The notes beneath the pieces are model-generated. The model was given only the letters and a program-made list of their open reading frames with translations, did no database searches and was not told where the DNA came from. Both the position numbers and the translations under genes were made by a program. Of a stretch of 64,000 nt of DNA, positions 14,150 to 53,761 are shown piece after piece (position 1 is the first letter of the stretch; each line of letters opens with the position of its first letter). The stretch comes from Actinopolymorpha cephalotaxi (GTDB lineage Bacteria; Actinomycetota; Actinomycetes; Propionibacteriales; Actinopolymorphaceae). Where the stretch lies: assembly GCF_013408535.1 (NCBI RefSeq), contig NZ_JACBZA010000001.1, forward strand, positions 372,001-436,000, in the 5' to 3' direction.

Positions 14150-14926
14150 TCACGGCGCGGATCCGTAAGCCTGCTTGAGCACGTAGCCCGCGCCCCGCAT
14201 GGTGTGGATCATCGGCGCCCGTCCGGCATCGATCTTCTTGCGCAGGTAGGAGATGTAGAGCTCCACGACGTTGGCCTGGCCGCCGAAGTCGTAGCTCCAC
14301 ACCCGGTCCAGGATCTGCGCCTTGCTCAGCACCCGCCGCGGGTTGCGCATGAGATAGCGCAGCAACTCGAACTCCGTGGCGGTGAGGCTGACCAGATCAC
14401 CGCTCCGGCGTACCTCGTGGCTGTCCTCATCGAGAGTGAGATCGCCGACGACCAGCAGCGCGTCCTCACGGGTCGTCGTGGTGACCGTACGCCGCATCAA
14501 ACCGCGGAGCCGGGCCACGACCTCCTCCAGGCTGAACGGCTTGGTCACGTAGTCGTCGCCGCCGGCGGTCAGCCCGGCGATCCGGTCCTCGACCGCGTCC
14601 TTGGCGGTGAGGAAGAGTACGGGCACCCGCGGGTCCTCGCCCCGCATCCGGTGCAGCACCTCCAGGCCGTCCAGGTCGGGGAGCATCACGTCGAGCACCA
14701 CCGCGTCCGGCTGGAACTCCCGGGCGACGCGGACGCCCGCGCGACCGGCGTCGGCGGTGCGCACGTCCCAGCCCTCGTAGCGCAGCGCCATCGCCAGCAG
14801 GTCGGTGAGGGTCGGCTCGTCGTCGACGACCAGCACCCGGACGGGTCCGCCGTCGGCCCGGCGCAGTGCCGGTGAAGCCGGTGAGTGGGAGGAGTCCGGT
14901 CGGGTAGCCGAGGTCGTACGCGTCAT
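14150..14926 (-). CDS. OmpR-family response regulator
   Basis: 258 residues from the ATG at 14926. The receiver domain has the acidic pocket VLVVDDEPTL, phospho-acceptor Asp about 79 in VVLDVMLPDLDG, the conserved Thr in LFLTAKD and the Lys in VTKPFSLEE. The C-terminal winged helix has LTATEFELLRYLM and the ending RTMRGAGYVLK-like IHTMRGAGYVLKQ. It is the first gene of the cassette and should activate or repress the kinase and glycosyltransferase genes downstream. An N-terminal tail of about 28 Ser/Pro-rich residues precedes the receiver. Confidence 0.93.
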   Translation of the reverse strand: MTRTTSATRPDSSHSPASPALRRADGGPVRVLVVDDEPTLTDLLAMALRYEGWDVRTADAGRAGVRVAREFQPDAVVLDVMLPDLDGLEVLHRMRGEDPRVPVLFLTAKDAVEDRIAGLTAGGDDYVTKPFSLEEVVARLRGLMRRTVTTTTREDALLVVGDLTLDEDSHEVRRSGDLVSLTATEFELLRYLMRNPRRVLSKAQILDRVWSYDFGGQANVVELYISYLRKKIDAGRAPMIHTMRGAGYVLKQAYGSAP

Positions 14927-16667
<1,741 letters not shown>

Positions 16668-16792
16668 TCTCCGGTTGTGACGAGGCGGGCAAGCGGGCTC
16701 GTTCCGGCAAACCGGGACGCGCCAGCCGAACGTCCCTCGGCGCGGTGACCAACGACTCTCCTGAGCCCGCCCGCCCGATGCTGAAGTGAGGT

Positions 16793-16879
16793 GGCAAGGG
16801 AAACCCTTCGGCGCAGCGGCATGGCAGCGGGGGTGAACGATGCAGTGCCGCGCCGCGGGCGAGAGGGGTTTCCCTTGCC
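16793..16879 (+). ncRNA. Candidate structured RNA: 14-bp outer stem with nested helices
   Basis: GGCAAGGGAAACCC at 16793-16806 is the exact reverse complement of 16866-16879. Inside it, 16809-16814 pairs with 16850-16855 and, past a 3-base bulge, 16818-16821 pairs with 16846-16849, giving an 87-nt nested hairpin. It lies 126 bp after guaB1 and 50 bp before the next start codon. It could be a guaB1 terminator, a leader element of the next gene, or an independent RNA. No known riboswitch class is recognised. Confidence 0.4.
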
Positions 16880-16928
16880 GCGTTGAAAGATCTGCGCCAG
16901 CAGCGGCCCGAAGCCGGGGGAGGGTCCG

Positions 16929-17453
16929 ATGTTGACCGTGGCAGTCGTGGGGAGTGGGGGCGCCGGTCCCGGTGCCTGGGACGTCGGCCCGCGGATCGTG
17001 GCGCGGCTGACCGGAGACCGGCTGACCGGGGGGCAGCCGGTCCCGGGTCAGCGAGCGTCCGGGGAGCAGACGCACGTCGAGGGCGTGCAGGTCCTGGCCA
17101 GCACCGATCTGCCCGTACGCCTGCTGAGTGCGGACAGCGGCCTGGACGAGCTGATCATGGTCGAGTCGACCCGCGCCGGCGGTACGCCGGGTTCGATCCG
17201 GCAGTCGGTCATGGAGACCCACGGCCCCGGCCGGCCCGAGCCCGGGACGACCGCACCCGGCGGGGTCATGGGAGCGCTCACGTCCCTGCACCTGCCGCCC
17301 CGGGTCGTGGTCTTCTCCGTGGAGGCCGGCCTCGAGGACGGCTCCGGGGACGGCGAGGCCACCAGCGTGCTCGCCGACCGGGCGGTCGACGAGGTGTTCG
17401 ACCTGGTGATCGCCGAGCTTCGCCGGCTGGACGCGTCCCAGCGGTTGGCGTAG
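16929..17453 (+). CDS. Hydrogenase-maturation-protease-like protein
   Basis: 174 residues, ATG preceded by GGGGGAGGGTCCG. The pattern follows the HycI/HyaD fold: an N-terminal AVVGSGGAGPGAWDVGPRIV, a middle DELIMVESTRAGGTPGSI where HyaD has D-A-x-x-x-x-x-P-G, and VVVFSVEAGLEDG near the end. These peptidases trim the large subunit of NiFe hydrogenases after nickel insertion. The first nickel-binding acidic residue is not obvious in the N-terminal loop and no hydrogenase gene is in the window, so the target is unknown. It converges on the CBS gene with a 4-bp gap. Confidence 0.6.
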   Translation: MLTVAVVGSGGAGPGAWDVGPRIVARLTGDRLTGGQPVPGQRASGEQTHVEGVQVLASTDLPVRLLSADSGLDELIMVESTRAGGTPGSIRQSVMETHGPGRPEPGTTAPGGVMGALTSLHLPPRVVVFSVEAGLEDGSGDGEATSVLADRAVDEVFDLVIAELRRLDASQRLA

Positions 17454-17457
17454 GAAC

Positions 17458-18147
17458 TCAGCGGTCGTCGTAGAGCACGTCGAGCACGTCGCGCGCGGAC
17501 ACGATGCCGACAGCGCCCGGCCGCGCCCGCGCCCGCAGCGGAACATGGCGTACGTGGTGCCGGCGCATCAGTTCGGCGACCTGCAGGATCGGGTCGCTCG
17601 GGCGGGCCCAGACGATGTCGTCGGCGTCCACACCGACCACGTCCGCGGACCACACCTCGTCCGGGTCGCCGCCGCCAGCGACGGCGCGGACGATGTCGCG
17701 CTCGGACAGGATGCCCGCCGGTACGCCGTTCCGGTTCACGACCAGCGCGCCGACGTCGGCCTCGGCGAGGAGTTCGGCCGCCGACCGCAGGGTGCTCGCG
17801 GCGTCGACGGTACGTACGGGAGAACGCATGATCCGCTCGACCGGGTCGTGCCGGCCCACCGGGACGGCGTTCTCGCCCCTGCCGCTCCTCGCCCGCGGAA
17901 CCCGCGCGGCGTCCTCGAGATCCGCGGTGTCCCCGGGGCCTGCGGTGTCCTCGGTCTCCCCGGTCCCGGCGGGCAGCACGATCGCCTCCGGGCCCGGATA
18001 GATGAACGACTCGTGCCCGTCGTCCCAGACCACGCGGTACTCCGGTGACTCGGGTGTGCCCAGCACCTCGCGTACTGTCCCGTGCCGGCGGTGCGCCCGA
18101 TCGGGCTCGTGGGCCAGGACGATGCGGTCGCCGACGTGGACGGTCAT
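17458..18147 (-). CDS. DUF1918 and CBS-domain protein
   Basis: 229 residues from the ATG at 18147 (GGAG upstream). Residues 1-60 are a DUF1918 domain, a small SH3-like barrel: VGDRIVLAHEPDRAHRRHGTV and YRVVWDDGHESFIYPGPEA. An acidic, low-complexity linker (about 60-90) leads to a CBS pair: VERIMRSPVRTVDAAS with GVPAGILSERDIVRAV, and VVWARPSDPILQVAELM-like IVWARPSDPILQVAELM with GAVGIVSARDVLDVL. CBS pairs sense adenylates or similar ligands. The combination is common in actinobacteria, where the partner is unknown. Confidence 0.85.
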   Translation of the reverse strand: MTVHVGDRIVLAHEPDRAHRRHGTVREVLGTPESPEYRVVWDDGHESFIYPGPEAIVLPAGTGETEDTAGPGDTADLEDAARVPRARSGRGENAVPVGRHDPVERIMRSPVRTVDAASTLRSAAELLAEADVGALVVNRNGVPAGILSERDIVRAVAGGGDPDEVWSADVVGVDADDIVWARPSDPILQVAELMRRHHVRHVPLRARARPGAVGIVSARDVLDVLYDDR

Positions 18148-18247
18148 CTCACTCCAGCCGGACCTGGGACGTGTTTCAGGAGGGCGGGCTGGTCCCACTG
18201 TCGCGACGGCCGCCGGGCAGGCCCCAGAGCCGAAGGTCCCGTACGGC

Positions 18248-18865
18248 TCAGGCGGTGTGCCGGTGCCAGCCCGGCCCGGGGCGGCGACCCGATCGTGGCC
18301 GGTGCCACGGGTCGGTGGCCGCGCGGTGCAGGCTCCTCAGCAGGCCGATCTCGGCGGCGAAGCGGGTGACCTCGGTGTTGACCCACGCGGCGACGTACCC
18401 GAACGGCCGGGTGCCCCGCTGCAGCCACTCCGCCCGCGCGGTGGAGTCGAGGTCGGTGTCCTCCAGTGCGGACAGGCCCCGGCTCCAGCCGTCCCGGACC
18501 GAACGCAGCCAGTCCAGGGTCGCCTCGCCGTCTCCGGGCCAGTCACCCGAGGGCGGATGGTCGCCGAACTCCGCGCCGAAGCACCGCTCCGACGTCTCGG
18601 CCCACCACGAGCCCAGCCGCCAGGTCAGCCAGCCGATCGTGCGGGCCGGCTCGGGGTGGACGGAGAGGTCGGTCATCGGCCGGTCGGCGGTCCACCGCCC
18701 GTCCGGTTCCCGGCGTACGGTCCACGCTCCGGGAGCCGGCTCCCACAGGTAGGCGGAGTTGTCGAGGTCGCCCAGGTGGACCTCGAGCAGCGACCACGCG
18801 ACGTCGAGCTGCCAGCGCAGCAGCGCGATCCGCGGTGTGCCCTGCGTGTTCGAAATGTCTGCCAC
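18248..18865 (-). CDS. DinB-family protein
   Basis: 205 residues from a GTG at 18865 preceded by GGGGAGGTGCA. The DinB four-helix pattern is seen: ALLRWQLDVAWSLLEVHL, YLWEPAPGAWTVRREPDG, IGWLTWRLGSWWAETSERCFG, and a C-terminal NTEVTRFAAEIGLLRSLH where the helix usually gives the third metal ligand. The superfamily includes mycothiol- and bacillithiol-dependent transferases and S-isomerases, and a thiol-dependent enzyme is a reasonable guess in an actinobacterium. It follows the CBS gene on the same strand but 100 bp apart. Confidence 0.8.
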   Translation of the reverse strand: MADISNTQGTPRIALLRWQLDVAWSLLEVHLGDLDNSAYLWEPAPGAWTVRREPDGRWTADRPMTDLSVHPEPARTIGWLTWRLGSWWAETSERCFGAEFGDHPPSGDWPGDGEATLDWLRSVRDGWSRGLSALEDTDLDSTARAEWLQRGTRPFGYVAAWVNTEVTRFAAEIGLLRSLHRAATDPWHRPRSGRRPGPGWHRHTA

Positions 18866-41679: not shown

Positions 41680-41750
41680 TGGGGTGTCGTCTAAGGGCAA
41701 GACCTCAGATTTTGGATCTGATGATGGGGGTTCGAGTCCTCCCACCCCAG
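41680..41750 (+). tRNA. trnQ: tRNA-Gln (anticodon TTG)
   Basis: Acceptor arms TGGGGTG (41680-41686) and CACCCCA (41743-41749) pair; G is the discriminator and CCA is encoded at 41751-41753. The anticodon stem TCAGA/TCTGA holds loop TTTTGGA with anticodon TTG, reading CAA. The T arm is GGGGG-TTCGAGT-CCTCC. The gene is intact. Its 3' half forms the left attachment site of the island. Confidence 0.95.
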
Positions 41751-41764
41751 CCACCCTCTGACCA
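41710..41764 (+). other. attL, left attachment site
   Basis: Starts in the tRNA-Gln anticodon loop and runs 14 bases past the gene. All 55 bases recur at 53707-53761. Beyond it similarity goes on with changes to about 41801 (GCGCTTTTGTCG and, 11 bases later, GTTCGCTG are shared), so the original duplication may have been about 95 bp. Confidence 0.92.
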
Positions 41765-41803
41765 GCGCTTTTGTCGCGCTGGATGCGGTTCGCTGACGAT
41801 CAG

Positions 41804-41822
41804 TGTCAATGGGAGTGTCAAT
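41804..41822 (+). promoter_or_regulatory. Pair of TGTCAAT motifs, candidate integrase arm sites (left)
   Basis: TGTCAAT at 41804-41810 and again at 41816-41822, start to start 12 bp, 40 bp inside attL. The same pair with the same spacing and orientation occurs near attR, which makes chance unlikely. Confidence 0.55.
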
Positions 41823-41837
41823 GAGTACACTCCGGAC

Positions 41838-42245
41838 ATGCCCACCGAGGCCGCTCCGAAGCGCCGCCAGCGCGGGTTCATACGGCGCCGCGGGAACTCA
41901 TATCAGGTGCTCGTCTACGCCGGCACGGACCCGTTGACGGGTAAGGACAGCTACCTCACCGAGTCGACAAAGGACGCTCGGGAGGCCGAGCGGATCCGCA
42001 CCCGGCTTCTCGCGCAGGTCGACCAGCAGCGCCAAGGGACGATCGACAGCCACCTGCACGCCCTGCGCCACTACTCTGCGACCGAGCTCATCACCGCCGG
42101 CGTCGACATTCGCACTGTCGCCGGCCGCCTCGGCCATGGTGGAGGCGGCACCACCACCCTGCGCGTCTACACTGCCTGGGTAGCCGAATCAGACAGACGT
42201 GCAGTCGAAATCCTCGCCGACCGGCTAATGCGCTCGGCTCCATAG
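41838..42245 (+). pseudogene. Tyrosine integrase remnant with the central part deleted
   Basis: 135 codons from ATG 41838, in frame throughout. Residues 1-65 are the N-terminal arm-binding region (RRGNSYQVLVYAGTDPLTGK, DAREAERIRTRLLAQVDQQRQ). They join directly to the C-terminal catalytic end SHLHALRHYSATELITAGVD, VAGRLGHGGGGTTTLRVYTAW, which keeps HxxR, GH and the nucleophile Tyr. Normal enzymes have some 250 residues between, including the core-binding domain and the first catalytic Arg, all lost here. It cannot be an active recombinase. Position beside attL is that of the element's own integrase. Confidence 0.88.
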
Positions 42246-42295
42246 CGCCCAGGAAGCGGAGCGCAGTAGGCACATGCGGCCATGATCGCGGCCTC

Positions 42296-45200
42296 TTACA
42301 CGGAGCCGCCCGGCCCATTTGCGTGAAGGAATTCTGCGCCAATTACAGTGATCAAGTCCGGCCGGATCCGCGCCAGAGCACGCAGGCAGGTGCTCCAATG
42401 CCCAATTACTAGCGCCTGCGCGAGGAGATGGTGTGACCTATCACTCGGGTAGTTCACTGCTAAATCGCTGAGAGTCTTTGAACGTTCTATCGGGTCGGTA
42501 ATCTCGGACGCAACTGTCTCGGAACGCTGCATATTTCCTTTACTCGCCCACCCTTGGGTTACCACCCCAAGGGCACGAGCACGCGAAGCTGGCGCTGCAA
42601 TGGAGAACACAATACGCTCGGCATCCGTCATTTCGCCCGAGGAAACCGCGACCTCTACAATGGAGGCCAACGTCTTCGCTCGCAATTGTCCGTCGGAGAT
42701 TCTCCGAGCAGTCCCCTCGGCGGACAGGATGTTTCCAGAGAGTGCTATTGCTGAGGCTATGGTGCTCAATGCTCGGTGGCGAAGTACAGGGTTGGAGATG
42801 GTAGCCGCAAGGCGCTCCGCCCTTTCTGACTCGCCGATTGCGACCAACTGGTGTAGGACTTCGTTCAGTGCGCTATCGCGATATGACCCCTGAGGGGTCA
42901 TATCCACCATAACCAACGCACGATCTACAAGTTCACGAGCAGCGTCTACATCTCCATTTGATGCCGAAGCACGTGAAAGCGTAGCCAGGGCTCTCACGCG
43001 GAGCACCGGGACAGAGATCGATTCAACCACTTTCGCGGCCTGCTCGATGTTCCGGTCGTGAACAAGTATTAGCGCGCGACCTACTAATCTCTCGGATAGT
43101 TCAAATGGCGTTAAAGAAGAGTCTGTCGGTGGGGCTATCGGCTCGTCTGCTGATGTCGCATCGTCGTCTGAATCTGTTACGCGGACGGTCTGCGCCGGCT
43201 GCGTATTTCCACCACTCCGGCCCGAATTTACGCGAGACGGTAGATAGAATGCCTTAGTTTTGTACGCCGGGTCTTCTATTAAGCCCGAGATTCGCTTCAC
43301 TTGCTCAATGTCCCCGACCCCAATTGCGACTTTTGCGACCAAAAACAACGCGACCGACTGCTGGGTAACATCAGAGACCGATTTGGCTACCTCCAGCGCT
43401 CGGTCGAGGTTACCGGCGCGTGCTACTGCCTCTGCCGTCGTAGTTAACGCACGATCCCGCCGTGGGACGTCAGAAATCGAATGCGCAAGATGGACAGCTT
43501 GCTCGATGTCTCCGACCGCTGCTGTGGCTTGTGCCAGTGCGGCCTGACCGACGGCAACTCGGCTCCCTCCGTCGAGCGATCTTGAGATGGCTTCAGCCTC
43601 ATTAGCAATTTGCTCAGCTGTATGCTTCTCGCCGGCCATAGCTACATTGGATGCAAGAACTGCAAGCGCTCTTGCGCGTCGGCGAAGGCTGGGAATATCA
43701 CGAACGAGCTCAGCGGCACGGTCTGGGACGCCACAAAGAGCTAGTACGCCGGCAATAGATGTTAAGGCGTCGGTCCTTTCGGATGCCTTCGGGGTGACAA
43801 GCGCTGCGGACTCGGCCTCACGCAGGATCTGCCAAGCTGCTTCCGGACCGTAAATGGATCGAACTTCGCGGGCGACAGCAGCAAGGATCCATGCTCGCCG
43901 CCCCGGATTTTGGATAGAGAATGCAAGACTTTGAGCTTCGGCAGCGATGCTATCTGCGCGACGACGAGCGCCAGATATTGACGCTGCTTTAGCGATGGTC
44001 GCTAGGGTATGGGCTCGATCGGCTCGGGGGCGTATTGAGCGGGAAATCGAGTATCCCCGTTTCCAGTTTCCTGACTCAGCTATTTCTAACGCGACGGCAC
44101 TAACGGCACCGGCACGCTCTGGTGAACGGTTGATCTCACCGGCCAACGCGAGCGCCTCTCCTATATTTCCGGTTGCTGCGACGGCGCGTGTCACAGCTCT
44201 GAATGCATCGGCTCGTTGGGGTCCGTTATCTAGCGCTTTAGCGGCAGTTAACGCTCGGCCAATTAAGGCTTGTGCATGGGGTATATCCCCAATCTTGGCG
44301 TACGCACGAGCGACGGCGGCATTGGCATGAGCCTGTTCCTCGCTGTCCGTGGAGGTGATTGCACGTAGCCCCTGCTCTGCCTGCTCCGCGACCGCTCGCG
44401 CGCGGTCCAACTCTCCGAGAGCATTCAACTCTTGCGCCACCGAAACCAAGGCTCGAACTTGGCGAATCGGAGTAGTGATGGAGCGTGCCAGGGCCTCGGC
44501 GCGGCTGTAGCGTCCCACCTGGGCCCAGACTACGGGAAGATTGACGGGCAGATGATCGTTACGCTCCGTAAGTCGAATTCGGTGGACGGCAACCCTGCCC
44601 AACGCGACAAGATCCGGAGAAGTTGTGCTCAGCAGCTGTTCCTGTGTGGCAAATATTTCGCTGAGCGCCGCGCTGTCACCGCCTATGATGTCGAGCATGC
44701 GGTTATGCCGATCAGGGTCCGTTACGCACTTCAGCATGCGTGGTGTGTCGGCCGTAGCCTGCAGGAGCCTGAAGTAGCCGCGTAGGGGATACTCAGGAGT
44801 GTTAGGTGGCCACTTGGCCGCTCGGTATCCTTCCACCCACTCGTGGATCCGTTCTCGGTATTCTTCCAGCCGCGTCTCTCCGAGGAATCGCAGTGCTTGT
44901 TGGTAAATTTCTTCGTGGCCGAGAACGTAGACGGGAACCTCCGCCTGCCATCGGCCCGCTCGGGAGTTGAAGGTGCGAGCAGATACGGCTTGAAGATGAT
45001 CCTGTATCTCCCATGCTGGCGCGTCCGTAAGCTGCGCCAAATCCCCCTCCGAGAGGCCGCCTCCTGCTGCTGTCAGGAGGCCAAGCAAGTCCTTCTCGAT
45101 GGCACTCCCACGAAGAAGTCTTTTGAGTTCCCGCTCTGCATCCTGCCGAACCACCGTGGCATATTCCGATCGACGCAATGATCGAACAATGTCTGCTTTC

Positions 45201-46657
45201 CGTAAAGGGTGACTATCAGGGACATCTGTCGGAATTGGGGGATTGGGGCGTCCGGCAACGATCACCCGCATCCCTGCTGGGGGGTTCTCGGGAAGAACTG
45301 CGGCGATGCTATGTGCGTCTGGGGAAGTAGTGACCCCGGAGTCCTCGTCGAGACCGTCCACTACCAAGATCAGGCGCTCTTCCCGACGCCTGCATAGGTT
45401 CGCGGCCCGCTCGAACGCATCTAGTAAGTGGGCCTCGCGGGTTGCTCCTGTCAATAGCACCGGCATAGGTTCGCCGAGTAGTTCTAGAAGTTGTTCGTGC
45501 ACGACTTCAATAAAAGCTGTTCGGTCCGCTTGCCCTGCCCAGCGTGCCGTAATGAAAAACGATACAACCCTCACGCCTTGCGGCGGATTCAAGGCGAAGC
45601 TCGACAGCAAGGCTGATTTCCCAGCCCACGCTTCGGCGCGCAACCAAAGATATGAGCTCGACTCGAGGGATGTGCAAAACCGTGTAAGCTCGGCCAGGTC
45701 GGTCTCCCTGGCGCGTAATTGCTGGGGCGCTATTCGCCGTACTTGGGAGAGGTACGCGGACCGTGCCAAAATTCTTGTTGGCCGCTGTTCGGTCGCGGTC
45801 TCTTGGTCATCGCTCGACGATCCTCCCACCAGAGAGTATCCGACCAAATCGCGGCGCAGAGATTCCATGTTCTTTGCGGCTGCATTTGGTGCGTACCTGC
45901 CGGCGAGTTCGCTCAGTCGACTAAATAGGCGATCGGCCGCAGCTGCTGTGCCAGCCGAGACGATTCCGCGGAGTCGAGCAACGCAAAATGAGCGGTCCGA
46001 TTCGTCAATGCCTTCAAGTCGGATTTCTCGAAGCGTAAGGGAAGTGAGAAGGCGCCAGGTCAGCTCAGAGTTTGGCAGCCTCTGAGTATCGATTCCCTCC
46101 GTCACTGCGGCTAGAGCGACAACCTTATCGATCTGTTGCAGTCTCTCCCTAGCTGTGCGGTTCAAGCGCCCGACGCGTCTGACCTCGGACCTGAAATGAT
46201 CTTCGCTTCCAGCGTCCCTAGCCATGGCAGCTAACTCTCGGAGCTGTCGTACGTGCTGGTTGGGGCTAGCGACAACCAACGCAAGTCGCCACCGGCCGGT
46301 GGCTATCTCGGCTGGATGATCGTGAATTACTCGAAGGTAGGAGCCGAGTAATTCGACCGAGGCGCGATCGCTTGGCACAAACGAAGGAGACCTGCGTACT
46401 CCGATCGATACCAGGCGGGGAGTGCCATCCGCTGAATATCCGCGCACTACCACGTCGTCGACGACGCTGTAGGAACTAGCTTGGAAGTGGATCTCGCGCG
46501 GGGTTACGTCGTCCCCAAGCTCGGGCAATGGGTCTGCAGTCAGCAGATGGCTCAACAGCAGTGCACCGTAACGATGCTCCAGGACGGTGCCTCCGCCGCC
46601 CGTTGAGTATGGGCTCGCGCGTCTCCTCTGGGGTCGAGCAGCGGAATGATCAGCCAC
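42296..46657 (-). CDS. Large STAND/NACHT NTPase with C-terminal helical repeats
   Basis: 1453 residues, GTG start, no good ribosome-binding site. Residues about 20-130 form an N-terminal domain (GGGGTVLEHRYGALLLSHLL, SSYSVVDDVVVRGYSADG, RLVSIGVRRSPSFVPSD) that recalls the PD-(D/E)xK-like domains heading several bacterial STAND proteins, but with SIGVRR where QVK-type catalytic residues would be. The NTPase core has a degenerate Walker A AEAWAGKS (about 341-348) and Walker B LILVVDGLDED (about 430-439), then MRVIVAGRPNPP. From about 740 to 1410 runs a long array of 33-37-residue TPR-like helical pairs (R..AL..IA.A.A..G...RA). Such receptors sense phage proteins; here that is inferred from build only. 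Confidence 0.75.
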   Translation of the reverse strand: MADHSAARPQRRRASPYSTGGGGTVLEHRYGALLLSHLLTADPLPELGDDVTPREIHFQASSYSVVDDVVVRGYSADGTPRLVSIGVRRSPSFVPSDRASVELLGSYLRVIHDHPAEIATGRWRLALVVASPNQHVRQLRELAAMARDAGSEDHFRSEVRRVGRLNRTARERLQQIDKVVALAAVTEGIDTQRLPNSELTWRLLTSLTLREIRLEGIDESDRSFCVARLRGIVSAGTAAAADRLFSRLSELAGRYAPNAAAKNMESLRRDLVGYSLVGGSSSDDQETATEQRPTRILARSAYLSQVRRIAPQQLRARETDLAELTRFCTSLESSSYLWLRAEAWAGKSALLSSFALNPPQGVRVVSFFITARWAGQADRTAFIEVVHEQLLELLGEPMPVLLTGATREAHLLDAFERAANLCRRREERLILVVDGLDEDSGVTTSPDAHSIAAVLPENPPAGMRVIVAGRPNPPIPTDVPDSHPLRKADIVRSLRRSEYATVVRQDAERELKRLLRGSAIEKDLLGLLTAAGGGLSEGDLAQLTDAPAWEIQDHLQAVSARTFNSRAGRWQAEVPVYVLGHEEIYQQALRFLGETRLEEYRERIHEWVEGYRAAKWPPNTPEYPLRGYFRLLQATADTPRMLKCVTDPDRHNRMLDIIGGDSAALSEIFATQEQLLSTTSPDLVALGRVAVHRIRLTERNDHLPVNLPVVWAQVGRYSRAEALARSITTPIRQVRALVSVAQELNALGELDRARAVAEQAEQGLRAITSTDSEEQAHANAAVARAYAKIGDIPHAQALIGRALTAAKALDNGPQRADAFRAVTRAVAATGNIGEALALAGEINRSPERAGAVSAVALEIAESGNWKRGYSISRSIRPRADRAHTLATIAKAASISGARRRADSIAAEAQSLAFSIQNPGRRAWILAAVAREVRSIYGPEAAWQILREAESAALVTPKASERTDALTSIAGVLALCGVPDRAAELVRDIPSLRRRARALAVLASNVAMAGEKHTAEQIANEAEAISRSLDGGSRVAVGQAALAQATAAVGDIEQAVHLAHSISDVPRRDRALTTTAEAVARAGNLDRALEVAKSVSDVTQQSVALFLVAKVAIGVGDIEQVKRISGLIEDPAYKTKAFYLPSRVNSGRSGGNTQPAQTVRVTDSDDDATSADEPIAPPTDSSLTPFELSERLVGRALILVHDRNIEQAAKVVESISVPVLRVRALATLSRASASNGDVDAARELVDRALVMVDMTPQGSYRDSALNEVLHQLVAIGESERAERLAATISNPVLRHRALSTIASAIALSGNILSAEGTARRISDGQLRAKTLASIVEVAVSSGEMTDAERIVFSIAAPASRARALGVVTQGWASKGNMQRSETVASEITDPIERSKTLSDLAVNYPSDRSHHLLAQALVIGHWSTCLRALARIRPDLITVIGAEFLHANGPGGSV

Positions 46658-46817
46658 GCGCTGAGTTTAGACCGTCTCTAGTAGGCTTGAGCACCAAATG
46701 TCGCTGGTCGGTCGACCTCGCGACGGACGCTTCGCATAGGTGTTGGTGCCCAACGGGCCACCGACGGCTACTGCTGTCGCGGAACTCCGCCTCGGATCGT
46801 CAGCGCCTCAGGCAAGG

Positions 46818-47991
46818 TCAGGTCGGTTTAGATCCGCTCCCGCCAACGGTTGGTCCGGATGGCCAGGTGACTTCGAGTTCCTCTGGGCCATATGGGTTCT
46901 GGTAGAAGGACCGCAGGCAGTATTCGATCACGGGCTGCGCGGCGTTGGCGAGGTTGATGAACCAGTCGACGCCAGCCGGGTAGGACCAGAGGTAGGAGCG
47001 CGGGCTGCGGGTTCGAGCCGCGGTCAGTGAGGAAGTCGGAGATCTGGGCATCGGTCCAGTACGGCACGCGCTCGCGTGCGTGACGCACGCACTGGTCGAT
47101 GCTGGAGCCGGTGTTGATCGCGAGGTGTAGCTCGCCGCGGACGAGTTGGGTGTAGTGGTCAAGCCGCACCCGCGTCATCAGGAGCTGGTCGTCGGAGGCG
47201 ACGAACAGCGGCAGCGCCTGGGCGAGGCCTTCGAGGAGGACCTGCTGGTTGGCGTGGACGGACATGAGGCGGACCCAAGGCACGTCTTCAGCGGCGCAGC
47301 GCGCCGACCAACTGGCGCCCTGGAGCCCATGCCCGAGTACCTCGTGGAGAGCGAACTGTCTTGCGGCGACCTCGGTGAAGGTCGCTTGCCGAAGGTTGAG
47401 GCGTAGCCGGACGTCGGCGCCCACACCGTCCAGCCAGTACGCCCAGTACGCGTCGACGTCGGCGGTCTCAATGGTCAGGTTGAAAGGCGCGTCGGAGCCG
47501 GTCGCGCGGCGTACGGCCTTCTCGTAGGTGTCGGCGGCCGCGCGAATAGCATCCGGCGCGTCCGCTGTCTTCATGTGCCCTTCGAGTGCCCGGAACTCCT
47601 TGTCGGTGTTCGGCCCCCAACCGATCCCGACGTCAGCAAGCGCAGAACGAGCAAGCTCGCCGCGTTCCCTCACGTACTCGTCGGACCATCCCGCCGCGCC
47701 GCAGCCCTGCGTGGCGCGGATGTATTCGGCGAACGGTGGGCGCTCGCCGAGGAGGCTGCCGAGGTAGGCCAGGTCGGCGGTCAGGCGTGCGGATACGTGT
47801 GGCGTCTCGGCCTCGTCTGTGCGCTTACGGAGCGCCCGGAGTTGTTCGTAGACCTGAAGCCGGCTGGTCGCAGGCTCGATGGTCTCGGTCGTGGGGTGGC
47901 AGTCGAAGTCGATGACTGCGGGCGTGCCGCGGTTGACCTCGTAGGCGTTCCAGGCCCGAAGGACCGACTCAAGCTCGTCACGAAGCTTCAC
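46818..47991 (-). pseudogene. HExxxH metalloprotease-like gene with one frameshift
   Basis: A GTG at 47991 opens [23 protein letters not shown]. The middle has [12 protein letters not shown], an HExxxH zinc motif, and [13 protein letters not shown] 50 residues later with a possible third ligand Glu. The motif recalls DUF1704/MATCAP-type peptidases more than thermolysin (HExxH). At about 47010 the frame changes: one frame continues as unlike sequence to 46828, while the +1 frame gives [20 protein letters not shown] and a sensible end at 46818. One inserted base near 47008-47014 explains this. Substrate unknown. It follows argS and a strong hairpin on the same strand. Confidence 0.6.
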
Positions 47992-48005
47992 GGCGCAAGC
48001 GGCGT

Positions 48006-48086
48006 ACCCGGAACCTGCGCGGGGTCGCCAGGCCAAGCCGCGAGCGGTCGACAAGCGAGCCTGGCGACCCCGCGCAGAACCCGGGT
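48006..48086 (-). terminator. Long hairpin between argS and the metalloprotease-like gene
   Basis: 19 bases at 48015-48033 pair perfectly with 48059-48077; past a small internal loop (AAC/AAC) six more base pairs (48006-48011 with 48081-48086) extend it. It lies 67 bp beyond the argS stop and 15 bp before the next GTG. Probably the argS terminator. Confidence 0.6.
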
Positions 48087-48152
48087 GCGGACAAGCTGTC
48101 CGACCGACGGGAGATGAGCCCTCATCACGACCTGGTATCGGCTGGGTGCGCC

Positions 48153-49833
48153 TCACATCCGCTCGGGCGCGGACACTCCGAGCAGGCCAAGCCCGTTGGC
48201 CAGGACCGTCCGCGTGGCGGTGACCAGCAGCAGCCGGCCGCGATGAAGATCGGACAACTCCTCGTCGTCTTGCGGCAGTACCCGGCAGAGGTCGTAGAAC
48301 TTGTGGAACGCGGACGCGGTGTCCTCGAGGTAGCGGGCGACCCGGTGCGGCTCGCGCAGCTCCGCGGCGGTGGCCACTACGCGTGGGAACTCCGCGAGCG
48401 TCCGGAGCAGGATGCCTTCCTTCTCGTGGGACAGCAGCGACGGATCGAAGGTGTCGACAAGACCGGTGAGAGTGTCGGCCGAGATCCCAAGTTCGTCCGC
48501 GTTCCGCAGGATCGAGGACAGGCGTGCGTGGGCGTACTGCACGTAGTAGATCGGGTTGTCGTTGGTCTGTTTGGCCCACAGGTCCAGGTCGATGTCGATT
48601 GTGCTGTCGCAGCTGTATCGGGCCAGAGCGTAGCGAGCCGCGTCTACGCCGATCGCGTCGACGAGATCGTCGAGAGTGATCGCAGTGCCGGCGCGCTTCG
48701 ACATCCGCAGCGGTTGGCCGTGGGAGAGGAGGTTCACCATCTGTCCGATGAGGAACTCCAGGTTGACTCCCGGAGTGTCGCCGAACGCGGCACACACGGC
48801 GTTCATCCGCCCGACGTACCCGTGATGGTCCGCGCCCAGCATCATCAGGCACCGGTCGAAGCCACGTTCGCGCTTGTCGAGGTAGTACGCGACGTCGCCG
48901 GAGATGTAGGTGCCATTGCCGTCGGACTTGATGATCACCCGGTCCTTGTCGTCGCCGAACTTCGTGGTTCGCAACCACAACGCGCCGTCGTGTCGGTAGG
49001 TGTTGCCCATGCTGGAGAGCCCGGCTGATGGCCCGCTCGACGGCGCCGGAGTGGTGGAGACTGTTCTCGTGGAAGTACACGTCGAAATCGACGCCGAACT
49101 CGTGGAGCGTCTTCTTGATCTCGGCGAACATCAGCTCGACCCCGACCGACCGGAAGACTTCCTGCGCCTCGTCGTCGGGCAGTGTGAGGGTGTCGGGGTG
49201 TGTGGCGAGTACCTGCTGGGCGATGTCGACGATGTACTGGCCGGCGTAGCCGTCCTCGGGGGTGGCCGCGCCGCGGGCGCTGGCGAGTAGGGACCGGGCG
49301 AAGCGGTCGATCTGTCCGCCGTGGTCGTTGAAGTAGTACTCGCGGGTGACCTCTGCTCCGCTGAAGGAGAAGATCCGGCCCAGGGCGTCACCTACGGCTG
49401 CCCAGCGGGTACCGCCGAGGTGGATCGGCCCTGTCGGGTTGGCGGAGACGAACTCGAGGTTGATTCTCTCCCCGGCGTACATCCGGTTACGGCCGTACGA
49501 CGAGGCGGCGGTCACGATCTCCGCTGCGATGGCGCCCTGCGCGCCGGCATCGATGCGTACGTTCAGGAATCCCGGACCGGCGATCTCCACCGACGCGATC
49601 CCGTGCACCTCGCGGAGTCGGTCGGCCAGGAGCGCGGCGAGGTCGCGTGGCGGCATCCCCGCCTTCTTGGCCAGTTGGAGCGCGATGTTCGTGGCGTAGT
49701 CGCCATGCTCTCGGACCTTCGGTCGCTCGACGATGACCTGAGTAGGTACTCCGTCGGGCAGGGTCACCGTGCCGTCAGCAGTCAGACTCGCCAAGACGGC
49801 GACTACCGCGGACGAGAGCTGTTCTGAGGTCAC
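48153..49833 (-). pseudogene. argS: Arginyl-tRNA synthetase with a one-base frameshift
   Basis: From ATG 49833 the frame gives an N-terminal Add-1 domain ([20 protein letters not shown]) and the HIGH motif region [38 protein letters not shown]. At 49020-49022 an extra base in a GGG run (minus strand) shifts the frame; the second half (from 49010) reads [39 protein letters not shown] (KMSKS-like) and the standard end [10 protein letters not shown]. Removing one G restores an unbroken 560-residue class I ArgRS. Either the gene is newly broken or the base is a sequencing error. Housekeeping argS is usually elsewhere in actinobacteria, so this could be a second, element-borne copy. Confidence 0.8.
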
Positions 49834-50284
49834 CGGAGGATCCTATCGGCGTCGAACTGTCCCCGGCACGAACGTTTCCGGCAAGGGTCGGCGTCCTGTA
49901 GGGGCGACGAAGAGGGCCCCGCTGTCTTGGACCTAACAGGTGATGCCCGGTTCGTGATGAGGCTCAACCGAGGCACAAGGGCATTGCCGCGCGCGGAGAA
50001 CAGTCCTCGTTGGGCCCCGCCTCGACGTAGTTCGGAAGCAGCAGACAACCAGTCGTAGCCGCAAAACCGCCCACTTGCGGGATTAGCAAGATCGTCGTAG
50101 CAAGCGGTCGCCAAGTCCTTGGCCTCCGCGGCGAACAACGACCGAGAGCGACAAAGCTACCCGCCGCCGCCCTGCTTCCCGGCATGATGACCACACGCCG
50201 GCCTGCCACGCGATCACGAGATCCACGATTCAGCGGGGTGTGCGCGTATAGGGGCTGTGAGGTCGCCGGGGGTGGGGGAGTGCG
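49834..50284. other. Intergenic region inside the island
   Basis: About 450 bp between divergent argS and the NACHT gene. I see no RNA gene, repeat or convincing promoter hexamers. Short open frames here lack coding character. The only clear signal is GGGGGAG just before the ATG at 50285. Confidence 0.5.
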
Positions 50285-52513
50285 ATGTGGTGGCGAAGAT
50301 GGTCGTGGCCGCGGCGGTTGGGGTGGACGCTGCTGATGGTGGCTTTACTGCTCTTGGCGGTGGGTCTTCCGGTACGGGCGTGGGGCGCGAGTGGCGATGA
50401 GTTCAACCGATGGGTGGGGTTGTCGAACGTCCTGGCTCTGAGTCTGGGCGTGGTCGGCTTCCTGCTGAACGTCGTCGATCGGCGCTGGCACGCCGATGAG
50501 GTGTTCGCGAAGCGCCTGGATCAAGCGGCCGACGAGCTAACCGACCAGGCGTTGAAGAAGGAGAGCCGCGCGTTGCGAGGGCTGCTCGCGGCGGGCCAGT
50601 CTGGCTCAGCGGCGGCGGATGTGAGGTTCGCAGAACGGCTGGTCGTCTTCGCCGAAGCGGGATCGGGGTGGTCAGGGCATCTGGGTGAGGTAGGACTGTT
50701 TTACCAAGACCATGCGACCGGTGGACGACTGGTGATCCTGGGTGATCCTGGGTCGGGTAAGACTGTGCTGGCGGTGCAGTTGCTCGTGCAAACCCTCGAG
50801 GCGCGGCAGGAACAGCCAGATGGTCAGACTCGGCGGCTGTTGCCAGTGCCGGTGCGGGCCAGCCTCCCGACCTGGAATGTGGACGTGCCCTTCGAAGAGT
50901 GGCTGACCCGTCGGCTGGTCGCCGACTACGGTATGCGGCGGCAGGAGGCGACGGCGCTGGTGGCGGCCCGGCGGGTACTTCCGATGCTGGACGGGCTAGA
51001 TGAAATGGACCCGCAGGATGGCGACCCGCAACGGGCACGGCGGGCTGTGGCACGGCTCAACGATGAGTACACCGCTGGTGAGCGCGGTGCACCGCTGGTG
51101 CTGACCTGCCGCAACGACGAATATCTCGCCTTAGGCCAGCCGGTCCGGCCCGCCACCGAGGTCGTCATCCAACCCCTGACGCCTGATCAAATCCGTGACT
51201 ACTTGCGTCTCGAGGTCGGCACGAGTGCGAGACCTGACACCTGGAAGGGCTGGCAGCTGCTACTGGACCAGTTGGACACCGACGTCGGCATCGAACTGTT
51301 ACACGCGTTGAACACCCCATGGCGGTTGACCCTCGCGGTCACCTACGGTCGGGCCAACGGACACCCGTCGAGCCTGCTCCGCCAGATCGACGCCAGCGGG
51401 GCCGAGGACTCCGACGCTTACCACAGCAGGGTCCGGAAGCTGCTGCTGGAGCAGTTCATCCCCACCCGGATCCGGGTGCTTGACTCCACCGCCAACACCG
51501 CCCAGATCACGGCGTGGCTGCGGACTGTGGCTCGGCACCTGGCCTGGCAGCAACAGCACGGCATGGCCGGCACCGACATCGTGCTGCACCAATGGTGGCA
51601 CATCGCCGGTTCACGGCGAGTACGCCGCTGGCACGCCTGTACCAACGTCGCGCTCTTAGTCGCTGGTTTCGCTGTGATCTTCTCGGCGTTCAGTAGATTC
51701 GATCCTCTCGCCGTGACAGACACCGTTCGGTACTACCTGAGCCCACTGTCCGTATTCTATTTCTTCTACATCTTGGTAGGCGCTTTTTTTGTGCTGGTCA
51801 TAACGGCCTGGTGTCAGTTGGCGTGGTCAACAGGTCACCAAGAAATGGTGAGGCCGAAGGGCGCCAGCCTGCAGCAACTACACACCCCCCAAGGCCGCCG
51901 CCGCCTCGCCAGGGAACTCCCGAGAAACCTAGCGGTTGGGTTCGGGTGTGGATTCGTACTCAGCGCGTTCGTGGTCGGGAGCTTGCCCAGCGAGGCCGCC
52001 CTCGTGGTCAGCCTCGCTGTCAGCTTCACGTTCGCGCTCACGTTCGCGCTCACGGCAGGGCTGACGCCGCTGGACGCGGCAGGTTTCAACCCGCGCGACG
52101 CATTGCGAAACGACCTAGTCAACTGGCTCGCGCTCTCGCTCGCGGCCGGGCTGTCACTGTTGCTGTCGCTGTCGCCCTGGCTCAAGGGTAGGGACTGGGG
52201 GATCGGGCTCTTATTTATAGCCGCATTCGGGTTCGTGATCACGTTAGGAGCCACGCTCACGAGTGGGCTCGCGGCCAATGCATGGCTGCGGTACGTACTC
52301 GCCCTCTGGCTCACGCGCCGCGAGGGGATCTTGCCACTTGGTTTCGGAAGGTTTCTCAACCGCTGCCACCAAGCCGGGATCCTGCGTGAGAGCGGAAACG
52401 CCTACCAGTTCCGCCACCTGGAACTACGCGACTGGCTCCAGCACCCACCCCAGCCCTCGTACCAAGCCGCATCCCCCAACACCCTGACTCCCACGGACAC
52501 GGCACAGAACTAG
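50285..52513 (+). CDS. Membrane-anchored NACHT-family NTPase
   Basis: 742 residues, ATG with GGGGGAG upstream. Two N-terminal membrane segments (about 13-33 and 45-63) are followed by a NACHT module: LVILGDPGSGKTVLAVQLL (Walker A about 153-160), VLPMLDGLDEMDP (Walker B about 231-243), VLTCRNDEY (sensor 1) and QPLTPDQIRDYLRL. A helical region (about 290-430) leads to five or six hydrophobic spans (about 450-660) and a C-terminal FLNRCHQAGILRE / YQFRHLELRDWL, the last part of the winged-helix region typical of streptomycete NACHT proteins. Bacterial NACHT proteins include antiphage effectors. A membrane effector would suit cell killing by permeabilisation; this is inferred. Confidence 0.82.
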   Translation: MWWRRWSWPRRLGWTLLMVALLLLAVGLPVRAWGASGDEFNRWVGLSNVLALSLGVVGFLLNVVDRRWHADEVFAKRLDQAADELTDQALKKESRALRGLLAAGQSGSAAADVRFAERLVVFAEAGSGWSGHLGEVGLFYQDHATGGRLVILGDPGSGKTVLAVQLLVQTLEARQEQPDGQTRRLLPVPVRASLPTWNVDVPFEEWLTRRLVADYGMRRQEATALVAARRVLPMLDGLDEMDPQDGDPQRARRAVARLNDEYTAGERGAPLVLTCRNDEYLALGQPVRPATEVVIQPLTPDQIRDYLRLEVGTSARPDTWKGWQLLLDQLDTDVGIELLHALNTPWRLTLAVTYGRANGHPSSLLRQIDASGAEDSDAYHSRVRKLLLEQFIPTRIRVLDSTANTAQITAWLRTVARHLAWQQQHGMAGTDIVLHQWWHIAGSRRVRRWHACTNVALLVAGFAVIFSAFSRFDPLAVTDTVRYYLSPLSVFYFFYILVGAFFVLVITAWCQLAWSTGHQEMVRPKGASLQQLHTPQGRRRLARELPRNLAVGFGCGFVLSAFVVGSLPSEAALVVSLAVSFTFALTFALTAGLTPLDAAGFNPRDALRNDLVNWLALSLAAGLSLLLSLSPWLKGRDWGIGLLFIAAFGFVITLGATLTSGLAANAWLRYVLALWLTRREGILPLGFGRFLNRCHQAGILRESGNAYQFRHLELRDWLQHPPQPSYQAASPNTLTPTDTAQN

Positions 52514-52624
52514 TAGGTCGGTGCGAGCAAGACGGTTACCTCGGTGGCGCTCACCGGTTGCTTGCGCCCGAGGTCCTAGAGTGCAGGTCAGAGCGGACGC
52601 CTTAGTTTAGCCAGCACCACCTCG

Positions 52625-52656
52625 ACGTGCCCCCACTCTCTCGGGTGGGGGCACGT
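52625..52656 (+). terminator. 12-bp hairpin after the NACHT gene
   Basis: ACGTGCCCCCAC at 52625-52636 pairs exactly with 52645-52656 over an 8-base loop, followed by GTTATGTG. It lies 112 bp after the NACHT stop and 30 bp before the next start, so it may end the NACHT transcript or act as an attenuator. Confidence 0.65.
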
Positions 52657-52686
52657 GTTATGTGAACCGAAAGTGAGAGATGCCAC

Positions 52687-53331
52687 ATGCCTGAGTGGAG
52701 CGCCTTGGAACGTCGGAAGGCCAGCTTGCGACGCGCCCGCGACTTTGGGGATGGAGGCGGGCACGAATGGTCGACCGACGTGCAGTTCGCCCCCGGTCCT
52801 GAGCCTGGAACCGGCAAGATCCTCATCGGCAAACACCTACCGACGTGGGCGGAGGGGATGAGCTACCTGGACCTCAAACAGATCCCCGACTACTTCCTGC
52901 GCCCTGTGTGGTTCGCCGAGTGGTACAGCGACGATGGGCCTGAAATGGCCACCTGCCCGGTCAACCACCAGCGCGGCGTCTATGAGTGGGCCGCCCGCCA
53001 GCATGCCGCACGGGTGCTGGAATCAGTTCAGGGCGCGGTCGGTGAAGGCGGGCCGATCGAGCCGCCTGAAGCGGTCAACCGGGCACCTGACCCTGGCTGT
53101 GGGGTCTTAGAGATCCGATTCGACCAGGGCAAGCCTCAGTGGCAGGGGGTCTGGTACGACCTCTACGCGGGGCTGGCGATCTTCACCTCGGATGACCTAC
53201 GCGAAGTCGTGGACTGGGCGGTGAAGCAGCCCGCCGAAGCCAGGCTGTTCTTCGACGTGGGCAGGAATGAGGGAGTCGACCTGGAGACGTTCCGTGCCGA
53301 TCCGGGGCGCTACATCTACGAATACGACTGA
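52687..53331 (+). CDS. Hypothetical protein of the island
   Basis: 214 residues, ATG with GAGAG about ten bases upstream. No domain recognised. It has no membrane segment or signal; the N-terminus is basic (ALERRKASLRRARDFG), the middle is rich in Trp and aromatic residues (YFLRPVWFAEWYSDDG, QWQGVWYDLYAGLAIF) and the C-terminus is acidic (VDLETFRADPGRYIYEYD). Its place directly after the NACHT gene in the same direction makes it a candidate accessory, but a hairpin lies between them. Confidence 0.6.
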   Translation: MPEWSALERRKASLRRARDFGDGGGHEWSTDVQFAPGPEPGTGKILIGKHLPTWAEGMSYLDLKQIPDYFLRPVWFAEWYSDDGPEMATCPVNHQRGVYEWAARQHAARVLESVQGAVGEGGPIEPPEAVNRAPDPGCGVLEIRFDQGKPQWQGVWYDLYAGLAIFTSDDLREVVDWAVKQPAEARLFFDVGRNEGVDLETFRADPGRYIYEYD

Positions 53332-53413
53332 GCTGGACGGCGGCAAGGCAAGCTCGGGTCTATTGGTTGGTACCTGATCCACCTGAGAGGACACCACACA
53401 TGATGATCGGGAG

Positions 53414-53433
53414 CGCCCTGCAACCGCAGGGCG
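53414..53433 (+). terminator. Hairpin after the island hypothetical gene
   Basis: CGCCCTGC at 53414-53421 pairs with GCAGGGCG at 53426-53433 over AACC, followed by TTC. It lies 82 bp beyond the stop at 53331. Confidence 0.45.
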
Positions 53434-53593
53434 TTCGGGGAGAGGGACCGGGTGAAGGTGCGGCGACACCAGCCGCGTCAGACGATGCCCCGGCGCCATT
53501 CCCGTCGATGCTCCGCGCACGAGAACCCACTCGTAACGCGTTGCTCAACGTGGGGGACATCTCTCCGCAGGCCCGCCGGACCCGGCCGCCGGC

Positions 53594-53612
53594 TGTCAAT
53601 GGCACTGTCAAT
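53594..53612 (+). promoter_or_regulatory. Pair of TGTCAAT motifs, candidate integrase arm sites (right)
   Basis: TGTCAAT at 53594-53600 and 53606-53612, same 12-bp period and orientation as at 41804-41822, about 95 bp inside attR. The bases between and after (GGCAC and GA) resemble the left pair (GGGAG and GA). Confidence 0.55.
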
Positions 53613-53706
53613 GAACTGCAGGCGCATGTGGCTCTGGATGACACCTCAGACAGCGCTTCGGCCAGAATCGCCGCAGGTCAGCAAGGGGCTGACGGTGATC
53701 ATCGCC

Positions 53707-53761
53707 TTTTGGATCTGATGATGGGGGTTCGAGTCCTCCCACCCCAGCCACCCTCTGACCA
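53707..53761 (+). other. attR, right attachment site
   Basis: Exact 55-base copy of 41710-41764, starting within the tRNA-Gln anticodon loop sequence. It lacks the 5' part of the tRNA, so it is not a gene. It marks the chromosome junction of the element. The 365 bp between the last island gene and this site hold only a hairpin and the arm-like motifs. Confidence 0.92.

Follow-up and report, generated by a model that had tools for sequence, protein, structure and literature searches.

A STAND protein of Actinopolymorpha cephalotaxi with an invariant non-canonical site in its nuclease-fold head

Introduction

STAND receptors are usually described by their N-terminal effector. Where a nuclease fold in the effector slot has a fixed non-canonical site, the question arises whether a nuclease that is dead, or has been re-tooled, can still serve an immune receptor in defence. 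It is raised here by a 1453-aa STAND protein encoded in a 64 000-nt window of the Actinopolymorpha cephalotaxi genome (RefSeq assembly GCF_013408535.1, contig NZ_JACBZA010000001.1, positions 372 001 to 436 000); the window is the whole stretch of DNA analysed, and its numbering is used below. An earlier note made from these letters alone read the open reading frame (ORF) at 42296-46657, SIGVRR, AEAWAGKS and long helical pairs after them as we do; the two motifs lie at residues 84-89 and 341-348. The ORF is real and encodes a tripartite STAND protein, consisting of a head, an NTPase and a TPR solenoid. It is somewhat probable that this is a single-gene, immune-receptor-like STAND protein of the NACHT clade, with a pseudo-nuclease head that binds DNA or another ligand rather than cutting canonically.

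An invariant substitution at the nuclease site

A scan of genome contigs with the full protein returned nothing, and homologs were obtained by scanning with a head alignment. The alignment used below holds 75 heads, drawn from eight or more phyla (by database records) and in many cases from metagenome-assembled genomes; its model positions 55, 64, 82 and 84 are residues 59, 68, 86 and 88 of the protein. Every head has Gln at position 55, Asp at both 63 and 64 and Arg at 84, and position 82 is Gly in 38, Ala in 36 and Thr in one. The signature is thus Q-D-[GA]xR in 74/75 heads and Q-D-TxR in the remaining one. Ten Cap4-type domains with an intact site served for comparison: eight PF14130 matches from actinobacterial genomes, the nearest relative (locus L148) and a STAND gene neighbouring a head-bearing one in locus L033. 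In these, strand 1 ends with Glu, strand 2 begins with Asp and strand 3 carries [QS]xK. The heads retain only the Asp of this set, and the replacements of Glu by Gln and of Lys by Arg are invariant.

The absence of QxK, and SIGVRR in its place, had been proposed in the earlier note, and both agree with the alignment. The register itself is probable, judging from the strand ends of the predicted structure and from motif spacing. Asp and Arg are 15 residues apart in L022 and 17 in L100, compared with 15-17 from Asp to Lys in the intact set; the other heads have a longer hairpin. An ungapped HMMER alignment of L148 sets the head and Cap4 motifs four residues apart, an offset that hairpin length probably explains.

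The columns of the site (residues 59, 68, 86 and 88) are among the most conserved of the domain over ~40 clusters at 62% identity, which argues that the Q/D/R pocket is under selection; together with fixation of the substitution across the 75 heads, it also argues against decay of one copy. One other motif must be read with care: the homolog scan pattern demanded Y[SA]TGGGG, so the alignment of 75 heads is partly bound to show it conserved; homologs found by BLAST carry it too. The earlier note had suggested either a new head class or a non-nucleolytic variant. Because the signature is invariant in a large family and is no one-off degeneration, 'new head class' fits better than a broken copy; 'non-nucleolytic' describes what the head probably does, and is argued below.

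A nuclease fold, and whether it could still cut

AlphaFold2, given the alignment of 75 homologous heads, modelled residues 5-292 with a mean predicted local distance difference test (pLDDT) score of 90.8 and a predicted template modelling score of 0.88. The order of elements assigned by DSSP (helix, three strands, helix, strand) is that of the PD-(D/E)xK core, with C-terminal helices added. The top PDB matches in Foldseek were LmuA (E 2e-5), Avs3 (7e-5) and Cap4 (2e-4). VIA-align superposed the head on Avs3 with Z 13.8 over 215 residues (root-mean-square deviation 4.7), and gave Z 13.4 for HerA-DUF4297, 12.3 for Cap4, 12.2 for LmuA and 11.6 for Hachiman. From these matches the head has the nuclease fold that serves defence systems as an effector, in line with the type of head assigned in the earlier note, which had ended the domain near residue 130; the domain is there and runs to about residue 272. 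That note would have given up its idea for a head unrelated to nucleases or a protein lacking an NTPase core, and AlphaFold2 yields both the nuclease fold and a STAND NTPase core.

No Pfam family matched the window head at E up to 1, PF14130 had no match in the organism's own genome, and a viral fold library gave no match at E 0.001. Searching PDB sequences with the whole protein and with the head profile gave one informative result, a TPR match to TON_1535 (3zpj), besides weak and unrelated ones. One profile match, L148 (E 2e-7), links the heads to Cap4-type domains; no relatives of L148 were found in 297 genomes of the class.

Several points weigh against a pseudo-nuclease head. Residues have been relocated or substituted in some PD-(D/E)xK enzymes (BamHI, BglII and Cfr10I). 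D68 could form an unusual site with E27, which is conserved in 70/75 heads, or with other conserved acids (E215, D221). The effector-slot position without a partner gene is what one would expect of a working effector; among 84 loci there was no conserved partner gene, the neighbour clusters being mostly shadow ORFs of the STAND gene. Finally, the head profile gave no significant hhalign match to eight Cap4 sequences, so that a common origin of head and Cap4 rests on the fold and on the L148 match.

In the main alternative, the head would be a working nuclease whose site has been remodelled: D68 with E27 and/or another acid would bind metal, R88 would replace the catalytic Lys, and the receptor would kill or clear by cutting DNA, like Avs3. 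The invariance of D67, D68 and R88, the largely conserved E27 and the fact that the closest folds are active nucleases all speak for it, as does the effector slot. However, the Glu at the end of strand 1 has become Gln in 75/75 heads and the acid or amide of QxK has become Gly, Ala or Thr, so both are gone; E27 is itself Ala or Gly in 5/75; and in the helix that follows strand 3, to which acids have migrated in other families, we saw none that is strictly conserved. We judge this alternative unlikely. In HerA-DUF4297, mutations of the PD-(D/E)xK site lower nuclease activity, and a nuclease-site mutation abolishes defence (PMC11291478); by analogy, the canonical mechanism is unlikely in the head.

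One effector slot, many bodies

In the fetched loci the head is fused to 59 Avs4/nSTAND1-like bodies, seven NACHT-TPR bodies besides that of the window, five TPR-GreABC-PIN bodies, four PQQ-propellers and a few others (body classes being named from Pfam/NCBIfam scans of one or two members each). The TPR-GreABC-PIN proteins are those of L063, L064, L068, L069 and L072, with PIN recognized by Pfam in L063 and by C-terminal similarity in the others. In L046, L047, L050 and L051 the head is joined directly to a PQQ-type beta-propeller without an NTPase. Conversely, relatives L009, L011 and L024 have trypsin-like peptidase heads on the same NTPase body, and one of them adjoins a trypco2 gene; trypsin/trypco pairs have been described (PMC7159879). 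On the tree of heads, the starred branches require the NACHT-TPR label to have changed two or more times. The effector slot has been swapped between bodies.

As the head shares a chain with another nuclease domain, PIN, in L063 and is joined to a propeller with no NTPase in L047, the effector might be something else. The head might then serve for adaptation or oligomerisation and recruit an effector from another place in the genome, like the effector-associated domains of other conflict systems. Against this, no partner with a recurrent matching domain, whether standalone or fused to an effector, was seen in the 84 loci, and the most conserved residues appear to cluster where the active site used to be and not to be scattered across an interface. 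We therefore hold an adaptor to be improbable.

A winged helix-turn-helix (HTH) domain directly precedes the head in the same polypeptide in 14/80 homologs (L052-L057, L059, L065-L067, L070, L079, L090 and L096). It gives the DNA-binding head proposed here a DNA-linked context, and equally suits a STAND transcription regulator of the MalT or AfsR-like kind, in which the head would be the DNA-binding part and defence would play no role; the PADLOC archetype of the body also has an Xre-HTH. The island location and sporadic distribution of the gene, its relatives with protease heads and its Avs4-like and PDC-M54A-like siblings make such a regulator very improbable.

Tentatively, and with slightly more doubt than belief, we propose that the Q-D-[GA]xR head is a distinct and widespread class of STAND effector: a nuclease fold that has taken on a non-nucleolytic task, clamping DNA or binding a nucleotide-type ligand, and that has been combined with sensors of the NACHT-TPR, Avs4-like, TPR-GreABC-PIN and beta-propeller kinds. 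If so, annotation by fold only, as a Cap4-like nuclease, would give many proteins the wrong activity.

In L033, a P-loop STAND-like gene (14715-18768 of that locus) adjoins the head-bearing STAND gene, and its own Cap4-like head keeps QLK, hinting that this island may pair intact with altered heads.

NTPase, repeats and gene

The P-loop had been called degenerate in the earlier note, a reading that we reject. Relatives in the clade have (A/P)W(A/S)GK(S/T), followed by VVDGLDED and by AGRPNPP with the sensor Arg, all conserved; AEAWAGKS, with Ala for the first Gly, is typical of them and keeps GK(S/T), and both Walker B and the sensor Arg are intact.

AlphaFold2 modelled the body (residues 290-1453) with pLDDT 80. 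Across its NTPase and winged-helix regions this model matched both APAF-1 (Z 13.1, 358 residues) and 6mfv, a STAND-TPR protein (Z 11.4, 311 residues); beyond the winged helix it matched TPR solenoids. The repeat sequence has a 33-residue period (z 4.6) and a Pfam TPR_12 match (E 5e-4). Because long helical repeats readily give middling Z, the repeat type is based on sequence, period and model jointly. The helical-pair array of the earlier note is thus of TPR type, with its start moved to near residue 707 and a low-confidence linker at about 1144-1180. By these predicted structures, the NTPase plus winged-helix core and the C-terminal superstructure-forming repeats of STAND proteins are present.

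Orthologs occur in Streptomyces, Kitasatospora, Glycomyces, Amycolatopsis and Spongiactinospora. Those of L026-L030, L034 and L036 have the same head, NTPase and repeats, with heads 51-74% and NTPases 52-75% identical; the ORF of L029 is shorter (1000 codons). Since such orthologs exist in other actinobacteria, and the STAND_TPR profile matches (see below), the protein with SIGVRR and AEAWAGKS is not a chance reading. In support of its GTG start, a -10-like hexamer lies 6 nt upstream, the arrangement of leaderless actinobacterial genes, and TAGGCT stands at the same spacing in L026, L027, L028 and L030. The gene is single-copy in its own 6.86-Mb genome. It was found in none of five congeneric genomes searched, and tblastn and pattern scans of phages and viral contigs found no relatives of the protein. 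Features are collected in Table 1.

Table 1. Features of the STAND gene and its island, in window coordinates
Feature	Coordinates	Strand	Basis
Putative -10 element TAAACT of a leaderless-type promoter, 6 nt before GTG	46664..46669	-	Spacing shared with orthologs
Complete STAND protein gene, 1453 aa, GTG start at 46657	42296..46657	-	ORF, orthologs, conserved leaderless-type start
PD-(D/E)xK-fold head, residues 15-272, with pseudo-active site	45842..46615	-	AlphaFold2, Foldseek, VIA-align
Invariant Q59, Glu in Cap4-type nucleases	46481..46483	-	Head alignment
Invariant D67-D68, start of strand 2, retained catalytic-position Asp	46454..46459	-	Head alignment
SIGVRR, residues 84-89, substituted QxK site; R88 invariant, G/A at 86	46391..46408	-	Head alignment
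NACHT/STAND NTPase core, residues about 315-500	45158..45715	-	Pfam NPHP3_N above cut-off, NACHT E 1.3e-3; APAF-1 and 6mfv folds
Walker A AEAWAGKS, residues 341-348, GKS intact	45614..45637	-	Clade alignment
Walker B LILVVDGLDED, residues 429-439	45341..45373	-	Clade alignment
Helical/winged-helix-like linker from NTPase to repeats, residues about 501-706, approximate bounds	44540..45157	-	AlphaFold2 and 6mfv match range
TPR-type helical-pair solenoid, residues about 707-1447; low-confidence break at about 1144-1180	42317..44539	-	Period, Pfam, AlphaFold2
attL-like 55-bp direct repeat overlapping tRNA-Gln 3' end	41710..41764	+	Identical repeat pair
attR-like 55-bp direct repeat, identical	53707..53761	+	Identical repeat pair; empty site in L157

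Genomic island

The STAND gene lies on a ~12-kb island (41680-53761) at a tRNA-Gln gene, with 55-bp attachment site (att)-like repeats on both sides. At the congener locus L157 the island flanks are adjacent, which makes it an empty site. An integrase remnant (41760-42245) lies next to the tRNA-Gln gene. The island also carries a second STAND gene (50285-52513), for a 742-aa NACHT protein with transmembrane segments, and a second arginyl-tRNA synthetase gene (48153-49833) that is split into two frames, one with the N-terminal domain and the other with the catalytic and DALR parts; further ArgS/DALR-type loci lie elsewhere in the genome. The ORF reading at 46828-47900 contains a metallopeptidase-like motif, HEVLGHGLQ, and is in line with the broken argS frame.

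Proposed function

The head fold, its substituted residues, the architecture, the swapping of modules and the island are established by the results above. By analogy with the biology of other STAND proteins, we infer a defence role with TPR sensing and oligomerisation. The C-terminal TPR solenoid would sense a component of an invader. The NTPase, with its complete GKS, Walker B and sensor Arg, would then switch and drive oligomerisation, gathering the N-terminal heads as Avs3 gathers its Cap4-type nuclease domains (Avs3 tetramerisation is among the points summarised in PMC11291478). Ligand binding by the head and the absence of cutting are likewise what we infer: the clustered, conserved Q/D/R pockets would bind DNA or another anionic ligand, and might block this ligand or pass it to a host factor.

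Comparison with known systems

Inactive restriction endonuclease (REase) domains in conflict systems are already known, as Pfam NA-iREase and as an iREase in PMC10853773; our literature searches on inactive REase with NACHT, within the library searched, found no paper describing the Q-D-[GA]xR head. The idea of an inactive REase-like domain on a NACHT protein is common to NA-iREase3 (PF22739, 'NACHT-associated inactive restriction endonuclease'). Membership of that family was rejected, with an hhalign probability of 0.2, no match for the window head and weak matches for 2/75 heads. The PADLOC candidate defence protein PDC-M54A is collinear over head and NTPase with the siblings L019 and L033, which have Avs4-like bodies, whereas the window protein has no match to its profile.

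The body matches the PADLOC profile STAND_TPR (PDLC01173) with E 4e-124, over residues 286-765 in the best stretch. The archetype of that profile is an ATPase with an Xre-HTH and TPR, linked to cas1-less I-E systems in Streptomyces; the window protein instead has at its N-terminus a head of the PD-(D/E)xK fold, a probable pseudo-nuclease of Cap4 type. With Avs3 (AVAST type 3) it has in common the head fold (Z 13.8) and the tripartite STAND layout, but QxK and Glu are replaced in the window head, the NTPase is of another subfamily and sequence identity is about 13%. The Cap4/DUF4297 nucleases (PF14130), HerA-DUF4297 and LmuA likewise have the fold of the head (Z about 12-13). The window head has no PF14130 match, and where the Cap4/DUF4297 nucleases have E-D-QxK, every head has Q-D-[GA]xR, with Thr for Gly or Ala in one.

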